64,000 nucleotides of DNA from Rhodothermaeota bacterium MED-G19 (lineage in GTDB: Bacteria > Bacteroidota > Bacteroidia > Cytophagales > MED-G16): contig NTKI01000001.1 in the NCBI GenBank assembly GCA_002457315.1, positions 62,001 through 126,000 on the forward strand. Reading direction: 5' to 3'. Numbering within the stretch: position 1 is the stretch's first letter; each line of letters begins with the position of its first letter. The notes beneath the pieces were generated by a model, which searched no databases, was not told the origin of the DNA, and worked only from the letters and a program-made list of their open reading frames with translations. The position numbers and the translations under genes are program-made. This document shows positions 1 through 63,941 of the stretch, in pieces.

Positions 1-316
1 ACAAACCATTATAATGGTTTGTGTTCTGTATTGCAAGAACATCTGGAGTGTCTTCTACAACACATAATATCTCTTTATTAGTGTAGGGGTTATTTGATTT
101 ACATGAGCATTTACCATCTTCACATATCACATGACATATGTCACAGTACTCAGTTTTGTTTTTAAGGTCAACAATAGCTTTTGAAATATTTTCGGAAAAA
201 TTTATATCTTTTTTTAAGAGGAAAAGACAAAGTCTTAGAGCGGTTTTTTTCCCAATGCCAGGAAGTCTAGATATTTCATTTACTGCAGTTTCAATAATTT
301 TAGTTGGAAGTTTCAT
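1..316 (-). CDS. recR: Recombination mediator RecR (N-terminal part, cut by the window edge)
   Basis: RecR works with RecF/RecO to load RecA at single-strand gaps. The reverse strand reads from an ATG at 316 into a helix-hairpin-helix (LPGIGKKTALRL, about residues 18-29), then a cysteine cluster, then the start of a Toprim domain (VVEDTPDVLAI). About 105 residues are visible and the rest lies before base 1. The zinc cluster reads C-x2-C-x8-C-x-C; the family norm, as I recall it, ends C-x2-C, so one residue appears missing between the last two cysteines. A 22-bp palindrome lies in the coding region at 1-22. The symporter gene starts divergently at 410. A TAnnTTTG match on the reverse strand at 367-374 could be its -7 element, but the -33 spacing is poor. 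Confidence 0.93.
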   Translation of the reverse strand, partial: MKLPTKIIETAVNEISRLPGIGKKTALRLCLFLLKKDINFSENISKAIVDLKNKTEYCDICHVICEDGKCSCKSNNPYTNKEILCVVEDTPDVLAIQNTNHYNGL

Positions 317-55768: not shown

Positions 55769-56149
55769 ATGCCAACGATACAACAATTAGTAAGAAAAGG
55801 AAGAAAGAAGCTTAAGTCTAAATCAAAGTCTCCTGCTTTAGACTCATGTCCTCAAAAAAGGGGGGTATGTACAAGAGTGTATACAACTACGCCTAAGAAG
55901 CCAAACTCAGCTATGAGAAAAGTTGCAAGAGTTAGATTATCTCATGGTAAAGAAGTTAATGCTTACATTCCAGGGGAGGGTCACAACTTGCAGGAACACT
56001 CTATAGTATTAATAAGAGGTGGTAGAGTGAAAGATTTACCAGGTGTAAGATATCATGTTATAAGAGGTACATTGGATACTGGAGGTGTTGATGATAGAAC
56101 TCAGAGAAGATCTAAGTATGGTGCTAAAAGACCAAAAGCAAAGAAATAG
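55769..56149 (+). CDS. rpsL: 30S ribosomal protein S12 (uS12)
   Basis: A 126-residue decoding-centre protein. [14 protein letters not shown] starts the protein; [20 protein letters not shown] (about 27-46) holds the streptomycin-site lysine, and [20 protein letters not shown] (about 83-102) the second. Both are wild type, so no ribosomal streptomycin resistance is predicted. Codons are optimised. rpsG follows after 3 bp. Confidence 0.98.
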
Positions 56150-56152
56150 TAA

Positions 56153-56620
56153 ATGAGAAAATCTAAACCTAAGAAAAGATATTTTTTACCTGATCCTATA
56201 TATAAGGATACCTTAGTTACCCAGTTTGTTAATAATTTAATGCATGACGGAAAAAAGAGTGTTTCTTATGCAATTTTTTATGATTCACTAAAGATAGTTG
56301 AGGATAAAACTAAGGAAAAAGGCCTCGAATTATGGAAAAAAGCTCTCAATAATGTTATGCCTTCAGTCGAGGTTAAAAGTAGGAGAGTTGGAGGTGCTAA
56401 CTTCCAAGTACCTATTGAAGTAAGGCCAAATAGAAAAATAACTTTAAGTCAAAAATGGTTAATTCAGTATGCTAGAAGTAGAAATGAAAAGTCTATGGTA
56501 GAAAGGCTTGCCAATGAAATTATTGCAGCATCTAAAGGCGAAGGCGGTGCTGTTAAAAAGAAAGATGACACTCATAGAATGGCTGAGGCAAATAAGGCAT
56601 TCTCTCATTTTAGGTTTTAA
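56153..56620 (+). CDS. rpsG: 30S ribosomal protein S7 (uS7)
   Basis: A 155-residue primary 16S-binding protein. [19 protein letters not shown] begins it; [20 protein letters not shown] (about 26-45), [20 protein letters not shown] (about 75-94) and the C-terminal [18 protein letters not shown] are family hallmarks. Length is normal. It lies between rpsL (3 bp) and fusA (9 bp). Confidence 0.98.
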
Positions 56621-56629
56621 TTTTATATA

Positions 56630-58768
56630 ATGGCAGGAATTAAAGATTTAAATTATCTTAGAAACATCGGAATCATGGCTCACATTGATGCCGGTAAAAC
56701 TACTACGACAGAAAGAATATTATATTACACAGGTTTAAGTCATAAAATTGGTGAAGTTCATGATGGTGCAGCAACTATGGACTGGATGGAGCAAGAACAA
56801 GAAAGAGGAATTACAATTACTTCAGCTGCAACTACTACATATTGGAAGTATCCTACAAAACAAGGAAAGCTTATAGATAACACAAGTGACTTTAGAGTAA
56901 ATATTATAGATACTCCTGGTCACGTTGACTTTACTGTTGAGGTAGAAAGATCACTTAGAGTTCTTGATGGTGCAGTTGCATTATTTTGTGCTGTTTCAGG
57001 TGTTGAGCCTCAGTCTGAAACTGTATGGAGACAAGCTGATAAGTATAAAGTACCTAGAATTTGTTTTGTTAATAAAATGGATAGAGCTGGTGCTGATTTT
57101 TTAAATGTTGTTAAAGAGATTAAGGAAAAGTTAAATGCAAAACCAGTTCCTCTTCAAATTCCAATTGGCGCTGAAGAAGGTTTTAAAGGTGTTGTTGACT
57201 TAATTACTAACGAAGCAATTGTGTGGAATGAGGATGATATGGGCATGACATATAATGTAGTTGATATACCAGATAATCTTAAAAACACAGTTGATGAGTG
57301 GAGACAAAATTTAGTTGAAAATGTTGCTGAATATGATGACAATTTACTTGAAAAGTTTTTTGAAGATCCTAATTCCATAACTAAGGAAGAAATGATGGCT
57401 GCGATTAGGAAAGCTGTGATTGATATGTCTTTCTCTCCAGTCATGTGTGGTTCTGCTTTTAAAAACAAAGGTGTTCAGGCTTTGCTAGATGCTGTATGTT
57501 CATACCTACCTTCACCTCTAGATTTACCACCAGTATCAGGTACAAACCCAGACAATGAAGAAGAGACATCTAGAAAACCAAGTAATGATGAGCCATTTGC
57601 TGCTCTTGCTTTTAAAATTGCAACGGACCCATTTGTAGGAAGACTATGCTTCTTTAGAGTATACTCTGGTAAACTTGATGCTGGATCTTATATTTTTAAT
57701 AATAGAAACGGTAAAAAGGAAAGAATTTCTAGGCTTATGCAGATGCATTCAAATAAGCAAAACCCTATTGATGCAGTTAATGCGGGGGATATTTGTGCTG
57801 GTGTTGGGTTTAAAGATATTAAAACTGGAGATACTCTCTCTGATGAAAAATCTAAAATTGTCTTAGAGTCAATGTCTTTCCCTGATCCTGTAATTGGATA
57901 CGCCATAGAACCTAAACAACAAGCTGATGTTGATAAATTAGGAATGGCAGTTAGTAAGCTAGTTGAAGAAGACCCTACATTAAGAGTTAATACTGATGAG
58001 GAAACTGGTCAAACTGTTCTTAGAGGAATGGGAGAGCTCCATTTAGAGATTATTATTGAAAGACTTAAAAGAGAGTTTAAGGTTGAAATAAATCAAGGTG
58101 CTCCTCAGGTTGCTTACAAAGAATCTATATTATCATCTACTAAACACCAGGAGGTTTATAAAAAACAATCGGGAGGTAGAGGTAAGTTTGCTGATATCGT
58201 ATTTGAGATAGGACCTAGAGATGAGGATGCCGAGGGTGATGGTCTTCAATTTGTAAATCAAATTACTGGAGGTAAAATTCCAAGAGAATTTATTCCTGCT
58301 GTTGAAAAAGGTTTTAAAAATGCAATGAATAATGGTCCTCTAGCTGGTTTCCCTGTGCAGTCTCTAAAGGTAAGGTTATATGATGGATCTTTTCATGATG
58401 TTGATTCTGACTCACTTTCTTTTGAGCTTGCTGCAGGTATAGCATTTAAACAGGCTGCTAAAAAAGCTGATCCTGTTTTAATGGAGCCTATTATGTCTGT
58501 TGAAGTAACTACTCCGGATGAGTATACTGGTGGTGTAACTGGAGATCTTAATAAAAGAAGAGGGATAATGAAAGGTATGGATATGAAGGGTAATTCTCAG
58601 ATTATTAAGGCTGATGTCCCGCTTTCTGCTCTATTTGGGTATGTGACTGATCTTAGAACATTAAGTTCTGGGAGAGCGTCTGCTTCTTTGACTTTTTCTC
58701 ATTATAGTAGTGTTCCAAAAAATATTGCTGAAGAAATAATAAAAAAAAATAACGGAGAAATAAATTAA
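56630..58768 (+). CDS. fusA: Elongation factor G
   Basis: Translocase GTPase of 712 residues. G1 [20 protein letters not shown] (residues 14-33), switch [16 protein letters not shown]3 [19 protein letters not shown] (about 89-107) and G4 [12 protein letters not shown] are intact. Domain IV has [20 protein letters not shown] (about 509-528), and the end has [20 protein letters not shown]. No fusidic-acid-resistance change was noticed. It stands in the conserved rpsL-rpsG-fusA-rpsJ order. Confidence 0.98.
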
Positions 58769-58774
58769 TACAAA

Positions 58775-59080
58775 ATGTCACAAAAAATCAGAATTAAATT
58801 AAAATCATTTGACTATAATCTTGTAGACAAAAGTTCTGAGAAGATTGTTAAGGCAGTTAAGACGACAGGAGCTATAGTTAGTGGTCCAATACCTTTACCA
58901 ACAAGAAAAGAAATTTTTACTGTTCTGAGGTCTCCTCATGTCAATAAGACGTCTAGAGAACAATTTAAACTCTGTACTTACAAAAGATTATTGGATATTT
59001 ATTCTAATAGCAGTCAGACAGTTGATGCTTTAATGAAACTTGAATTGCCAAGTGGAGTAGATGTTGAAATAAAAGTTTAA
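58775..59080 (+). CDS. rpsJ: 30S ribosomal protein S10 (uS10)
   Basis: A 101-residue protein of the 30S head and NusB partner in antitermination. It begins [20 protein letters not shown] (residues 2-21), then [15 protein letters not shown]-type [20 protein letters not shown] (about 32-51) and [20 protein letters not shown] (about 53-72). In nearly all bacteria with this order it is followed directly by rplC. Here the next gene is the secreted glycosidase at 59124 and rplC comes only 3.3 kb later. Confidence 0.98.
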
Positions 59081-59123
59081 TATTTTAAATTTTGAATTTT
59101 ATGGTCTGTGCTATTACTTCGTA

Positions 59124-62100
59124 ATGCCGATGATTAAATTTTATAAACTTCTTGTAGTTCTTCTATTATTTTCAAACTACTCATTCTCTCAAAACTTTCT
59201 TAATACATCTGGAAAATCTATAATAAATGAGAAAGGTGACACTATAATTTTAAGAGGTATGGGGTTAGGAGGATGGATGGTCCAGGAAGGGTATATGATG
59301 GCTCCAGGCGGATTTTCTTCTACCCAATATCAAATAAAAGATAAAATCAGAGAGTTAATTGGTGATGAAGAAACTCAAAAATTTTATAATAATTGGTTAA
59401 AGAATCATGTTACTAAAACTGATATAGACTCGATGAAATCTTGGGGTTTTAATTTGGTGAGAGCACCAATACATTATAACCTATTTACTGTACCCATAGA
59501 GGAAGAACCTTTCCCAGGTTCTTATACAGAGTTAGATGTAGGCTTTAAGCTTTTAGACTCTTTGCTTAGCTGGTGTAAAGAAAATGAAATTTATCTTATG
59601 ATTGATCTCCATGCAGCTCCAGGAGGTCAAGGGTACAATGCAGATATTTCAGATTATGATCCAACAAAACCTTCTCTTTGGGAGAGTGAATTAAATCAAA
59701 ATAAGACTGTTGAACTATGGAAAAGATTATCACAGAGATATAAAAATGAGCAATGGGTAGCTGGATATGATTTAATTAATGAACCAAACTGGGAAATTCC
59801 TGGTGGAGTACTACTAAAAAACTTATATGTTCAATTAACTAACGTAATTAGAGCTGAAGGAGATAACCATATCTTGTTTATAGAAGGTAACTGGTTTGCA
59901 AATGATTTTACTGGTTTGACACCTCCATGGGATGATAATCTTGTTTATAGTCCCCATAAATATTGGAGTCCAGTAGATCAAGGGTATTTAGATTGGATGT
60001 TACCACTTAGAGATACATTGAATGTTCCTCTTTTTATAGGAGAAACAGGTGAAAACTCAAATTTTTGGTACAGGGATGCTGTAAAAGTTTTTGAGGAAAA
60101 TGGAATTGGTTGGGCTTGGTGGCCTCTAAAGAGAATTGGTGCAATTCAACCGCCACTATCTATAAATTATAATGACAAATATAAAATGCTAGTTGACTAT
60201 TGGAATGGAGGAAATATAATTCCGTCAAAAGAAGATGCTATTGCTGGTCTAAATCAACTTACTGAAGATATTAAAATTGAAAATTGTTTTTATCATAAAG
60301 ATATTATTGATGCTATGTTTAGGCAGCCTTTTTCAAATTTGACAGTGCCTTATGCAAATAATTTAATCCCAGGTAAAATTTATGCTTCAGATTTTGATAT
60401 GGGCATCATGGGAGAAGCATATTATGATGCTGGTGCAGAAGCAAATTATGGTGGCAATTTCTCTGCTTGGAATAATGGGTGGTCATTAAGGAATGATAAT
60501 GTCGATATTCAAGAAAGTAAAGATTCTGAATCAAATGGTTATAATGTTGGCTGGATAGAAAAAGATGAATGGATGAAATATTCTTTTCAATTAGATGAAA
60601 CTGGGGTATATAATGTTAATGTGAGAGTTGCCACTGAAGATGATGATGGCAGTTTTTATTTTAAATTAAATGGTCAGCAGTTTTCTAAAATGATTGATGT
60701 ACCTAAGACAGATTCTTGGGAGAATTGGGTAGATATAAAACTAGACTCTTTAGTTATAGATGAAGGAGATGAAAGTTTAGTGTTTCATGTTAATAGAGGT
60801 ACATTTAATTTAGGTTTTTATGAATTTATTAAGGTGTCTAATATTTCAGAAATAGAAACAGGTTATGTCTCTGCTAATACCTATAACCAAAATTCAATTA
60901 ACATAAATTTTAATAAAAATATTAAAAACTTTATTTCAGTTGGTCAATTAGGCTTTAAAGTTTTTATTAATGATCAAGAAGTAGAAGTAATAGATGTTTT
61001 AAATTCTACTTCTCCAAGGTCAATAATCTTGAACCTAGCTGTTGAAATTAAACCAGGTGATGTGATTACGATCTCTTACTCAGGCAATTCCATTAAATCA
61101 ACAGACGAAAATTTACTAGAAATATTTTCGGATGAAATTGTGAAAAATACTATATCCTATATTCATAATGTCCCAGGTAAAATTGAAGCTGAACATTATT
61201 TTTTCCAAAAAGGAATGGAATTGGAGAATGCATCAGACGAGGGTGATGGAAAAAATATTGCAAGTTTGGATAACGGAGACTATGCTGATTATTACATTAA
61301 AGTTAATTCTTCGGGCACTTATAATGTTACATATAGATCTGCTGCTGATCCAAATTGGTCGTCTGGGGGACAACTGGAACTAAGTTTATTAGACCCTGAG
61401 ACAGGAAACTATAATTCTATTCAAAATATGATTTTACCAACAACAAGTGGGTGGCAAATTTGGGAAAGCACAAGTAAACCATTAACTCTTTCTGAAGGAA
61501 ATCACCAACTTAGGTTAAAGATTATAGAGGGTCCTTTTAATTTAAATTGGTTTGCTTTTGATGATTCAGTATCAATTGGGATACCTATTCCTGGATATAT
61601 TCAGGCTGAAGATTATATATTCCAGTCTGGCACATCATTAGAAATGACAGAAGATGAGGGGGGTGGTCAGAATATTGGTTATTTAGATTCAGCAGATTAT
61701 GTTGATTATGTTGTAGATGTTTCAAAAACTGGTCTTTATGACTTAAGTTATAGAGTTGCTTCTGATGGGAGTGAGGACTATGCAAATGGTGGTACCATTG
61801 AATTACAACTTCTAATTGATTCTGCTAACTATGAAGTTTTACATACTATATCTTTCCCTTCTACTAATGGCTGGCAGGATTGGGTTACTTTTAATGACTT
61901 CCCTAAGATACATCTGGAGTCTGGTAACAGAAAACTTAGATTTTTCTTTAAAAAAACACCTTTTAATTTAAATTGGATCTTATTTGAAGAGTTTGAAGGT
62001 ACGGTATTAGGTCTGGAAAAAAATGATATAAGATTAAAAATATATCCTAACCCAACTTCTGAAAAAATCACTGTTGAATCAGACTTTATAACTAATGATA

Positions 62101-62279
62101 TTATTACTTATAAGTTAGTAGATTCTAATGGTAGAGTTTTTGCTAAAAGGAGTAAATTATATACATCAAAAATCTATGAAGAAATACTTGTAAATGGTAT
62201 AAATAAAGGACTCTTTTTTTTAGTTATTTACGAAGGAGACAACTTACTAGAAATCAGGAAAATTATTAAGTCTAATTAG
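59124..62279 (+). CDS. Secreted GH5-family glycosidase with CBM6-like modules and T9SS sorting domain
   Basis: The 1051-residue secreted enzyme begins with a signal peptide (ending NYSFSQ, about 1-22). The GH5 barrel (about 25-360) shows GMGLGGWMVQEGYM, MIDLHAAPGGQGYN, the acid/base E220 in GYDLINEPNW and the nucleophile E307 in FIGETGENSN. This resembles GH5 exo-1,3-glucanases and cellulases; the substrate is probably a beta-glucan, not proven. Then come a CBM6-like module (about 410-575), a SwmB/Ig-like segment (about 580-680) and two further CBM6-like modules, with paired IEAEHYFFQKG and IQAEDYIFQSG starts and FNLNWFAF/FNLNWILF ends. A T9SS type A domain (LKIYPNPTSEKITV) closes it. It lies between rpsJ and rplC. 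A weak promoter-like AAATTTTG (59087-59094) with TTG at 59064 may drive it. ATG 59130 is an alternative start. Confidence 0.92.
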   Translation: MPMIKFYKLLVVLLLFSNYSFSQNFLNTSGKSIINEKGDTIILRGMGLGGWMVQEGYMMAPGGFSSTQYQIKDKIRELIGDEETQKFYNNWLKNHVTKTDIDSMKSWGFNLVRAPIHYNLFTVPIEEEPFPGSYTELDVGFKLLDSLLSWCKENEIYLMIDLHAAPGGQGYNADISDYDPTKPSLWESELNQNKTVELWKRLSQRYKNEQWVAGYDLINEPNWEIPGGVLLKNLYVQLTNVIRAEGDNHILFIEGNWFANDFTGLTPPWDDNLVYSPHKYWSPVDQGYLDWMLPLRDTLNVPLFIGETGENSNFWYRDAVKVFEENGIGWAWWPLKRIGAIQPPLSINYNDKYKMLVDYWNGGNIIPSKEDAIAGLNQLTEDIKIENCFYHKDIIDAMFRQPFSNLTVPYANNLIPGKIYASDFDMGIMGEAYYDAGAEANYGGNFSAWNNGWSLRNDNVDIQESKDSESNGYNVGWIEKDEWMKYSFQLDETGVYNVNVRVATEDDDGSFYFKLNGQQFSKMIDVPKTDSWENWVDIKLDSLVIDEGDESLVFHVNRGTFNLGFYEFIKVSNISEIETGYVSANTYNQNSININFNKNIKNFISVGQLGFKVFINDQEVEVIDVLNSTSPRSIILNLAVEIKPGDVITISYSGNSIKSTDENLLEIFSDEIVKNTISYIHNVPGKIEAEHYFFQKGMELENASDEGDGKNIASLDNGDYADYYIKVNSSGTYNVTYRSAADPNWSSGGQLELSLLDPETGNYNSIQNMILPTTSGWQIWESTSKPLTLSEGNHQLRLKIIEGPFNLNWFAFDDSVSIGIPIPGYIQAEDYIFQSGTSLEMTEDEGGGQNIGYLDSADYVDYVVDVSKTGLYDLSYRVASDGSEDYANGGTIELQLLIDSANYEVLHTISFPSTNGWQDWVTFNDFPKIHLESGNRKLRFFFKKTPFNLNWILFEEFEGTVLGLEKNDIRLKIYPNPTSEKITVESDFITNDIITYKLVDSNGRVFAKRSKLYTSKIYEEILVNGINKGLFFLVIYEGDNLLEIRKIIKSN

Positions 62280-62325
62280 TAGAATTATTTGTCCATTTTT
62301 TATTAAAAAATAACTTTTCTATTAT

Positions 62326-62355
62326 TTGACAGGATATCTTAAATTGTTATCTTTG
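62326..62355 (+). promoter_or_regulatory. Promoter of the rplC-rplD-rplW-rplB operon
   Basis: TTG (62326-62328), exactly 19 bp, TATCTTTG (62348-62355): a perfect consensus promoter placed after the GH5 gene and 30 bp before the rplC ATG. It allows the S10-type operon to be transcribed although the glycosidase gene separates it from rpsJ. Confidence 0.76.
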
Positions 62356-62385
62356 CACACATTTTAGGTAAAGAATATATACAAA

Positions 62386-63018
62386 ATGTCAGGAATTATA
62401 GGAAAAAAATTAGGTATGACAAACGTTTTTGACGTTAGGGGTAGAAGTGTGGGATGTACTGTAATTGAAGCAGGGCCTTGTTTTGTTACTCAAATCAAAG
62501 ATAGAGACAAGGATGGGTATAGGGCAATTCAGTTATCTTATGATGATTTAAAGTCTAGTAAGGTTAATAAGTCTACTAAAGGACATTTTGCGGTTTCTAA
62601 TGTAGAACCTAAAAAGAAGATAGTTGAGTTTAGAAATTTTAGGAAAGAGTTTGATAGTAAGGTCAAATTGGGTATGGAAGTAAAACTTGCGGATGTTTTT
62701 AACGAAAATGAGTTTCTTGATGTCACCTCAATTTCTAAAGGAAAAGGATTTCAAGGTGTAGTGAAAAGACATAATTTCTCAGGTGTTGGTCAAAATACAC
62801 ATGGTCAACATAACAGGAATAGAGCTCCTGGTTCGATTGGTGCAGGTTCAACACCTTCTAGAGTTTTTAAAGGAATGAGGATGGCTGGTAGAACAGGTGG
62901 TGATAAAGTAACAATGCAAAACCTTAGGATTTTAAAGATTGATAAAAATGAAAATTTAATTTACGTTGGCGGATCTGTTCCTGGATCTAAGAACTCATAT
63001 GTAGTTTTATCAAATTAA
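62386..63018 (+). CDS. rplC: 50S ribosomal protein L3 (uL3)
   Basis: A 210-residue primary 23S-binding protein. MSGIIGKKLGMTNVFDVRGR (residues 1-20) starts it; SISKGKGFQGVVKRHNFSG (about 119-137) and SRVFKGMRMAGRTGGDKVTM (about 157-176) are the conserved extended loop and core. It follows its own promoter and precedes rplD by 7 bp. Confidence 0.98.
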   Translation: MSGIIGKKLGMTNVFDVRGRSVGCTVIEAGPCFVTQIKDRDKDGYRAIQLSYDDLKSSKVNKSTKGHFAVSNVEPKKKIVEFRNFRKEFDSKVKLGMEVKLADVFNENEFLDVTSISKGKGFQGVVKRHNFSGVGQNTHGQHNRNRAPGSIGAGSTPSRVFKGMRMAGRTGGDKVTMQNLRILKIDKNENLIYVGGSVPGSKNSYVVLSN

Positions 63019-63025
63019 TAAACTA

Positions 63026-63652
63026 ATGAAAATAGATATAAATAAAATTTCAGGGAAAACAAGTGGAAAAAAGATTACTTTATCTGATAAAATTTTCTCT
63101 ATTGAACCAAATGATCATGCCATATATCTTGATGTAAAAAGTTATTTAGCTAATCAGAGACAAGGTAATAGTAAGGTAAAAGGTAGGTCTGAAATTGTAG
63201 GTTCTACAAGGAAAATTAAGAAGCAAAAGGGGACAGGTACTGCAAGAGCTGGGAGTATAAAATCTCCATTATTCAAAGGTGGAGGTCAAATCTTTGGACC
63301 ACAACCTAGAGAATATAAAAATAAAATAAACAGAAAAGTAAAAGATTTAGCTAGAAAGTCTGCTCTTTCTCATAAGATAAAAGATAAGTCAGTTGTTATC
63401 TTGGAAAATTTTGATTTAAAATCCCCAAAGACAAAAGATTACGTTAGTATTCTTTCAAACTTTTCAATTGAAAATAAAAAATCATTACTCTTAACTTCTG
63501 AAAGTAATAAAAATATTGTGTTATCCACTAATAATTTGAAAAATGCAATTGTTAAAAAAGTTGATGATATCAACACTTATGATATAGTCAATGCTGATAG
63601 TGTATTATTTGTAGAGGATTCTATTAAAAAATTAAATGAAATTTTAAAGTAA
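63026..63652 (+). CDS. rplD: 50S ribosomal protein L4 (uL4)
   Basis: A 208-residue exit-tunnel protein. AIYLDVKSYLANQRQGNSKV (about 31-50) and KKQKGTGTARAGSIKSPLFK (about 67-86) with GGGQIFGPQPREYKNKINRK form the conserved tunnel loop, where macrolide-resistance changes occur in other bacteria; nothing unusual was seen. The C-terminal half is more divergent. It lies 7 bp after rplC and 1 bp before rplW. Confidence 0.97.
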   Translation: MKIDINKISGKTSGKKITLSDKIFSIEPNDHAIYLDVKSYLANQRQGNSKVKGRSEIVGSTRKIKKQKGTGTARAGSIKSPLFKGGGQIFGPQPREYKNKINRKVKDLARKSALSHKIKDKSVVILENFDLKSPKTKDYVSILSNFSIENKKSLLLTSESNKNIVLSTNNLKNAIVKKVDDINTYDIVNADSVLFVEDSIKKLNEILK

Positions 63653-63653
63653 A

Positions 63654-63941
63654 ATGGCAATACTCATAAAACCAATTCTTACTGAAAAGGCTACCTCATC
63701 TAATGATAAGGGGAAGTTTTCCTTTATTGTTGACACAAAGGCTAATAAGGTTCAGGTAAAAAAAGCTGTCGAAAAAACTTATGATGTTAATGTTGTCAGT
63801 GTTAATACTATAAATGTCTTGGGTAAATCAACATCTAAGTTTACAAAGACAGGTATAGTTAGCGGAAGAAAACCGTCATATAAAAAAGCTATTGTTCAAT
63901 TAAAAGAAGGTGAGTTCATTGATTTCTACTCACAAATTTAA
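63654..63941 (+). CDS. rplW: 50S ribosomal protein L23 (uL23)
   Basis: A 95-residue protein at the tunnel exit and a docking site for trigger factor and SRP. LIKPILTEKATSSNDKGKFS (about 4-23), FIVDTKANKVQVKKAVEKTY (about 24-43) and the C-terminal YKKAIVQLKEGEFIDFY are family-typical. Length is normal. rplB follows after 10 bp. Confidence 0.97.
   Translation: MAILIKPILTEKATSSNDKGKFSFIVDTKANKVQVKKAVEKTYDVNVVSVNTINVLGKSTSKFTKTGIVSGRKPSYKKAIVQLKEGEFIDFYSQI

Follow-up and report, generated by a model that had tools for sequence, protein, structure and literature searches.

The window, i.e., the whole stretch of 64,000 nucleotides that was analyzed, originates from the draft genome (1.3 Mb in 25 contigs) of Rhodothermaeota bacterium MED-G19. 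Its ORF list showed the gene order rpoB-rpoC-(small gene)-rpsL-rpsG-fusA-rpsJ, a GH5 ORF, and rplC-rplD-rplW all on the forward (+) strand, as are the spacers and motifs between them. The genes fusA, rpsJ, and rplC (L3) were identified by NCBIfam, and rpoB, rpoC, rpsL, rpsG, rplD, and rplW by reading of the sequence; the names of rpsL and rpsG agreed across genomes (tblastn). A str-type unit, rpsL-rpsG-fusA-rpsJ (55769–59080; ORFs, NCBIfam, tblastn), was preceded by a Bacteroidota-type promoter match 5′ of rpsL (upstream of 55769) and ended with rpsJ (58775–59080; ORF, NCBIfam). The spacer that followed (59081–59123) contained a promoter-like element, TTG-N19/20-TTA[C/T]TTCG, found to be conserved by spacer comparison in the genus. 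The GH5 ORF (59124–62279) encoded 1,051 aa, although alignment with its orthologues suggests that translation may start at the second ATG (59130). Of the GH5-rplC spacer (62280–62385), the right-hand ~90 nt, directly 5′ of rplC, aligned between the genus and a site lacking the gene in G013, a genome of a sister genus, and a Bacteroidota-type promoter motif, TTG-N19-TATCTTTG, was present at 62326–62355. The gene rplC (62386–63018; ORF, NCBIfam L3) opened rplC-rplD-rplW (62386–63941; ORFs, NCBIfam L3, tblastn), with which the S10-type unit begins in this lineage. ORFs, Pfam, and NCBIfam agreed with the proposal of an earlier, sequence-only reading that rpsJ and rplC are separated by a gene for a secreted GH5-CBM6 protein, read in the same direction. 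Its observation that the edges were free of repeats and mobile-element remains also stood, as the repeat search found no pair bracketing both edges of the insert. With neither flanking repeats nor transposase remains at the locus, the gene did not qualify as mobile-element cargo. The insert held no second gene, the ORF list showing only an 80-aa antisense ORF, and an Rfam scan returned tRNAs only.

Analysis of the GH5 protein by Pfam, NCBIfam, and an alignment of nine orthologues showed a catalytic domain, followed by three carbohydrate-binding modules (one CBM35/CBM6-like and two CBM6) and, at the C-terminus, a T9SS type A sorting tail. The Cellulase/GH5 domain (PF00150) covered residues 86–335 (E 8.7e-30; 104.6 bits, cut-off 23.5), which placed the protein in GH5. 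The CBM6 and CBM35-type modules were recognized by Pfam/NCBIfam, the two C-terminal CBM6 modules being 41% identical to each other. The C-terminal sorting domain was detected both as Por_Secre_tail (PF18962, residues 973–1048; 30.5 bits, cut-off 27) and as a T9SS type A tail (TIGR04183; 27.8 bits, cut-off 23), and a hydrophobic N-terminal start was visible by eye in the orthologue alignment. The protein is predicted to be secreted as T9SS type A cargo. Residues E220 (INEPN) and E307 (GETGE), which we take to be the two catalytic glutamates of GH5, were invariant in 9/9 orthologues and in 19/19 rows of a wider alignment. PMC5812240 describes two catalytic glutamates in CbGH5, an enzyme of the same family. 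The fold model of the catalytic domain had a mean pLDDT of 84.6. The nearest PDB match of this domain by sequence was the GH5_22 exo-β-xylosidase of Geobacillus (PDB 9ku5, 9kua; 3e-36), which also provided the nearest fold (TM 0.82 on query, 20–21% identity in the fold alignment), followed by other GH5 enzymes including endo- and exo-glucanases (TM ~0.5–0.6). In contrast to this top match of the catalytic domain, the window GH5 carries fused CBMs and a T9SS tail.

Homologues of the gene were common in other Bacteroidota, with 73 of the best 80 loci (of 233 relatives) lying outside the genus. None of these 73 had ribosomal protein neighbors in the fetched flanks; matches near them included GH16 (37), SusC (33), SusD (30), and GH3 (18), many of the stretches stopping at contig ends. 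A marine homologue (L121), which has one CBM6 fewer than the window GH5, had an adjoining GH30, confirmed by Pfam. According to PMC6794258, CBM6-containing GH5_46 together with GH16 forms a presumed laminarin locus, the third variant, of marine Bacteroidota. The window GH5 resembles such loci in its CBM6 and in its homologues often lying near GH16, SusC/D, GH3, or GH30, but it differs from them in standing alone between rpsJ and rplC. The neighborhoods of the homologues make β-glucan the likely substrate, which would be a β-1,3-glucan such as laminarin. The initial label "β-glucan-type" is likely on that ground; the substrate may nevertheless be another one, because the nearest PDB match is a GH5_22 exo-β-xylosidase. 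A characterized GH5_46 enzyme is a cellulase-xylanase according to PMC5812240.

Membership in a polysaccharide utilization locus was not apparent, since no susC/susD pair adjoined GH5 and ribosomal protein genes flanked it on both sides in the genus. The SusD matches of the source genome were located on contigs other than that of GH5. On one of its contigs (C25), a GH16 gene (L197 18191–19363) had a transporter-like ORF as its neighbor, and ~13 kb further along there was a SusC/SusD-type pair (L198 12821–17307); the genes that usually accompany a GH5 of this kind thus stand elsewhere in this genome. In a quick tree of GH5, the copies of the genus clustered with those of marine Saprospirales/Flavobacteriales (SH-aLRT 97) and apart from other Cytophagales copies; those of Marivirga, Marinoscillum MSM7, and Cyclobacteriaceae formed a separate clade (99). 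The stem branch of the genus was long (0.48) and the program issued a long-branch warning, which leaves the donor side uncertain. Most likely, the gene was acquired horizontally from another marine Bacteroidota, out of a β-glucan utilization locus.

In a genus sample of 12 genomes (the source genome and 11 others), GH5 was present in nine, the other eight copies being 62–86% identical to that of the window, and rpsJ in ten. The two genomes without rpsJ (G003 and G009; 54% and 77% complete) also lacked GH5 and rplC. GH5 was located directly downstream of rpsJ in 9/9 genomes with the gene, and upstream of rplC in all eight in which both were assembled, with an rpsJ-rplC distance of 3,303–3,312 nt; in the ninth (G006), the contig end falls inside the GH5 gene. 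Although the source genome is a draft of 25 contigs, an artefact of assembly (a chimera) or of binning is ruled out for practical purposes as the source of the junctions, since the same rpsJ-GH5-rplC joints recur in assemblies of other species, with GH5 at 62–86% identity and within contigs of up to 352 kb. The arrangement was general in its clade at the level of the genus (all nine genomes with the gene) and not at that of the family.

Comparison of rpsJ-rplC spacing in relatives showed the insertion repeated across the genus and empty sites, without GH5, in the congener G008 (101 nt) and in G012 (120 nt) and G013 (189 nt), which belong to two sister genera. No GH5 match at 1e-20 was found elsewhere in these three genomes. 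A tree of eight concatenated proteins placed G008 within the genus as sister of G004, G005, G006, and G011 (UFBoot 100 for the five including G008; 88 for the four without it), and its main splits recurred in the GH5 tree. Since G008 with its empty site lies inside the genus tree, it has probably lost GH5, and the simplest history by parsimony is a single gain followed by this one loss. The choice between a loss in G008 and two parallel gains was decided only by parsimony and the shared upstream element. No GH16 match was found in G008, the genome of which is 87% complete.

The codons of GH5 had been described as less adapted than those of its neighbors, a description that did not hold: with the ribosomal protein and EF-G genes of the window as reference, the CAI of GH5 (0.671) fell between those of rpsJ (0.650) and rplC (0.680), compared to 0.716 for fusA and 0.706 for rpoC. 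At rank 28 of 50 ORFs, the gene was rejected as a codon outlier. Its dN/dS was 0.07–0.11 (five pairs) vs. 0.013–0.042 for neighbor genes, and the protein is kept by purifying selection.

The motif TTG-N19-TATCTTTG preceded rplC in 8/8 genus genomes with GH5 and rplC, and in 3/3 empty sites. A generic sigma-70 scan gave no excess (23 found vs. 19.3 expected), and Bacteroidota-type motifs were therefore used instead. The box TAnnTTTG corresponds to the sigma-A −7 box of flavobacteria according to PMC9723704. The gene rplC was present in 54 genomes; 30 of these loci were tested, and in 25 TTG-17..22-TAnnTTTG was found within 250 nt upstream of rplC, against 0.69 expected from shuffles, which here and in the tests for rpsL and the rpsJ-GH5 spacer preserved base composition only, related genomes not being independent. 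These included 11/11 loci of the family and 14/19 outside it, also in genomes with rpsJ elsewhere. Upstream of rpsJ the motif was found in 0/30, a weak control given the 100 nt searched, mostly fusA coding, vs. 250 nt for rplC. A promoter-like sequence of Bacteroidota type does exist at 62326–62355, as had been proposed from the letters of the window; that it restores transcription after the insertion was not supported, as the motif was already present in G008, G012, and G013 and in 25/30 rplC loci, split genomes included. The presence of the motif in all three empty sites means that this putative promoter is ancestral, i.e., older than the insertion. The promoter motifs are presumably active in transcription.

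The view that the rpsJ-rplC joint is nearly inviolable failed in this order. Outside the family, 43 of 44 Cytophagales genomes had both rpsJ and rplC. The two were apart in 24 of the 43 (8 on one contig and 16 split between contigs, which is by itself no proof of distance), separated by 144–380 nt in 17, and by a Wzy_C gene in two; among the sampled genomes of the order, 101 nt was the shortest spacing of a joined pair. In the class outside the order, 76 of 77 genomes had both genes, of which 71 had them joined, with a median of 32 nt including the stop codon, and five did not. The contrast of 24/43 with 5/76 is descriptive, both sets being samples of related genomes. The two Wzy_C (O-antigen ligase-type) genes occurred in G057 and G042 (L101 7697–8998, L102 7882–9156), and G025, a third member of that genus, had a 380-nt spacer instead. 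In G113, of the same class but another order, an opposite-strand ORF lay between rpsJ and rplC (L205 1453–3018), with a T9SS-like C-terminal tail by reading. Compared to the standard bacterial S10 operon, which starts with rpsJ-rplC, the genes and their direction are the same, but in this order a separate promoter motif precedes rplC, the str unit ends with rpsJ, and more than half of the genomes sampled outside the family have the two genes apart. A literature search returned no paper joining a ribosomal protein operon and a glycoside hydrolase in Bacteroidetes, and nothing on the rpsJ-rplC joint.

In the spacer between rpsJ and GH5, the promoter-like element of the window reads TTACTTCG, at ~59114–59121. 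TTA[CT]TTCG occurred in 9/9 congeneric spacers (~0.08 expected from shuffles, the rows being related), and a TTG, placed by eye ~19–20 nt before it, was kept in all nine amid otherwise changing sequence. The box departs from the usual sigma-A −7 box, to which it is a poor fit. Assignment to an ECF-type (CGT) or SM5-type box, as given in PMC9723704, was dropped, CGT being restricted to the subclade of the source genome. Words resembling TTA[CT]TTCG also occurred at the G012 and G013 sites that lack GH5. A search between rpsJ and rplC found no intrinsic terminator, so that transcripts of the str unit may read through into GH5.

We propose that in Cytophagales the rpsJ-rplC spacer would be a boundary between transcription units, since rpsJ would end the str unit (rpsL-rpsG-fusA-rpsJ) and rplC would open a unit with its own promoter. 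In the ancestor of the genus, a single gene for a T9SS-exported GH5-CBM6 protein, donated by another marine Bacteroidota in which it would have been part of a β-glucan utilization locus, would have become fixed after the rpsJ stop and ahead of the rplC promoter that was already there, and would afterwards have been inherited vertically under purifying selection with one loss (G008). Its expression would draw on a mix of str-unit read-through and the conserved promoter-like element of its own. We hold this account, of one horizontally acquired glycosidase fixed between transcription units and kept by purifying selection, with possible read-through, to be likely as a whole. The insertion was probably tolerated owing to the promoter that the genes downstream of it already possessed, and the suggestion of a tolerated insertion is to that extent supported.

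Such a unit boundary may simply be a harmless place to settle, where GH5 came to lie by chance and is driven by its own promoter; this is, on balance, a plausible explanation, consistent with that candidate promoter and with a joint repeatedly broken or filled (apart in 24/43 genomes, Wzy_C in G042 and G057, an opposite-strand ORF in G113). Purifying selection and the fixed position across the genus nevertheless argue for selection on the gene, even if not on its location. Alternatively, the position could be maintained by selection for a coupling in which the str promoter makes production of the secreted glycosidase follow growth and ribosome synthesis. The rpsJ-GH5 spacers are short, the genes run in the same direction without an intrinsic terminator, and the position is retained in 9/9 genomes with the gene, in a genus of small genomes (1.0–1.6 Mb) in which only a few GH16 and SusD genes were detected. 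The conserved promoter-like element in all nine spacers, however, would make expression partly independent, the flanking gene order is common to the genus anyway, and the apparent loss in G008 suggests that GH5 is dispensable, so that we consider such selected coupling rather unlikely. A full shift of GH5 from substrate control to ribosome-synthesis control, with read-through output tracking growth rate and the coupling selected genus-wide, appears doubtful.

Under the preferred account of a glycosidase fixed between transcription units, the str/S10 region of one particular lineage has captured a carbohydrate enzyme, an event for which the empty sites and the probable secondary loss provide natural controls, within an order-wide loosening of a joint that stays tight in the rest of the class. 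Given this loosened joint, the insertion is less surprising, and its remaining interest lies in whether expression of GH5 follows that of the ribosomal genes. If it does, the genus would clearly exemplify a foraging enzyme whose production is tied to growth and not to its substrate.
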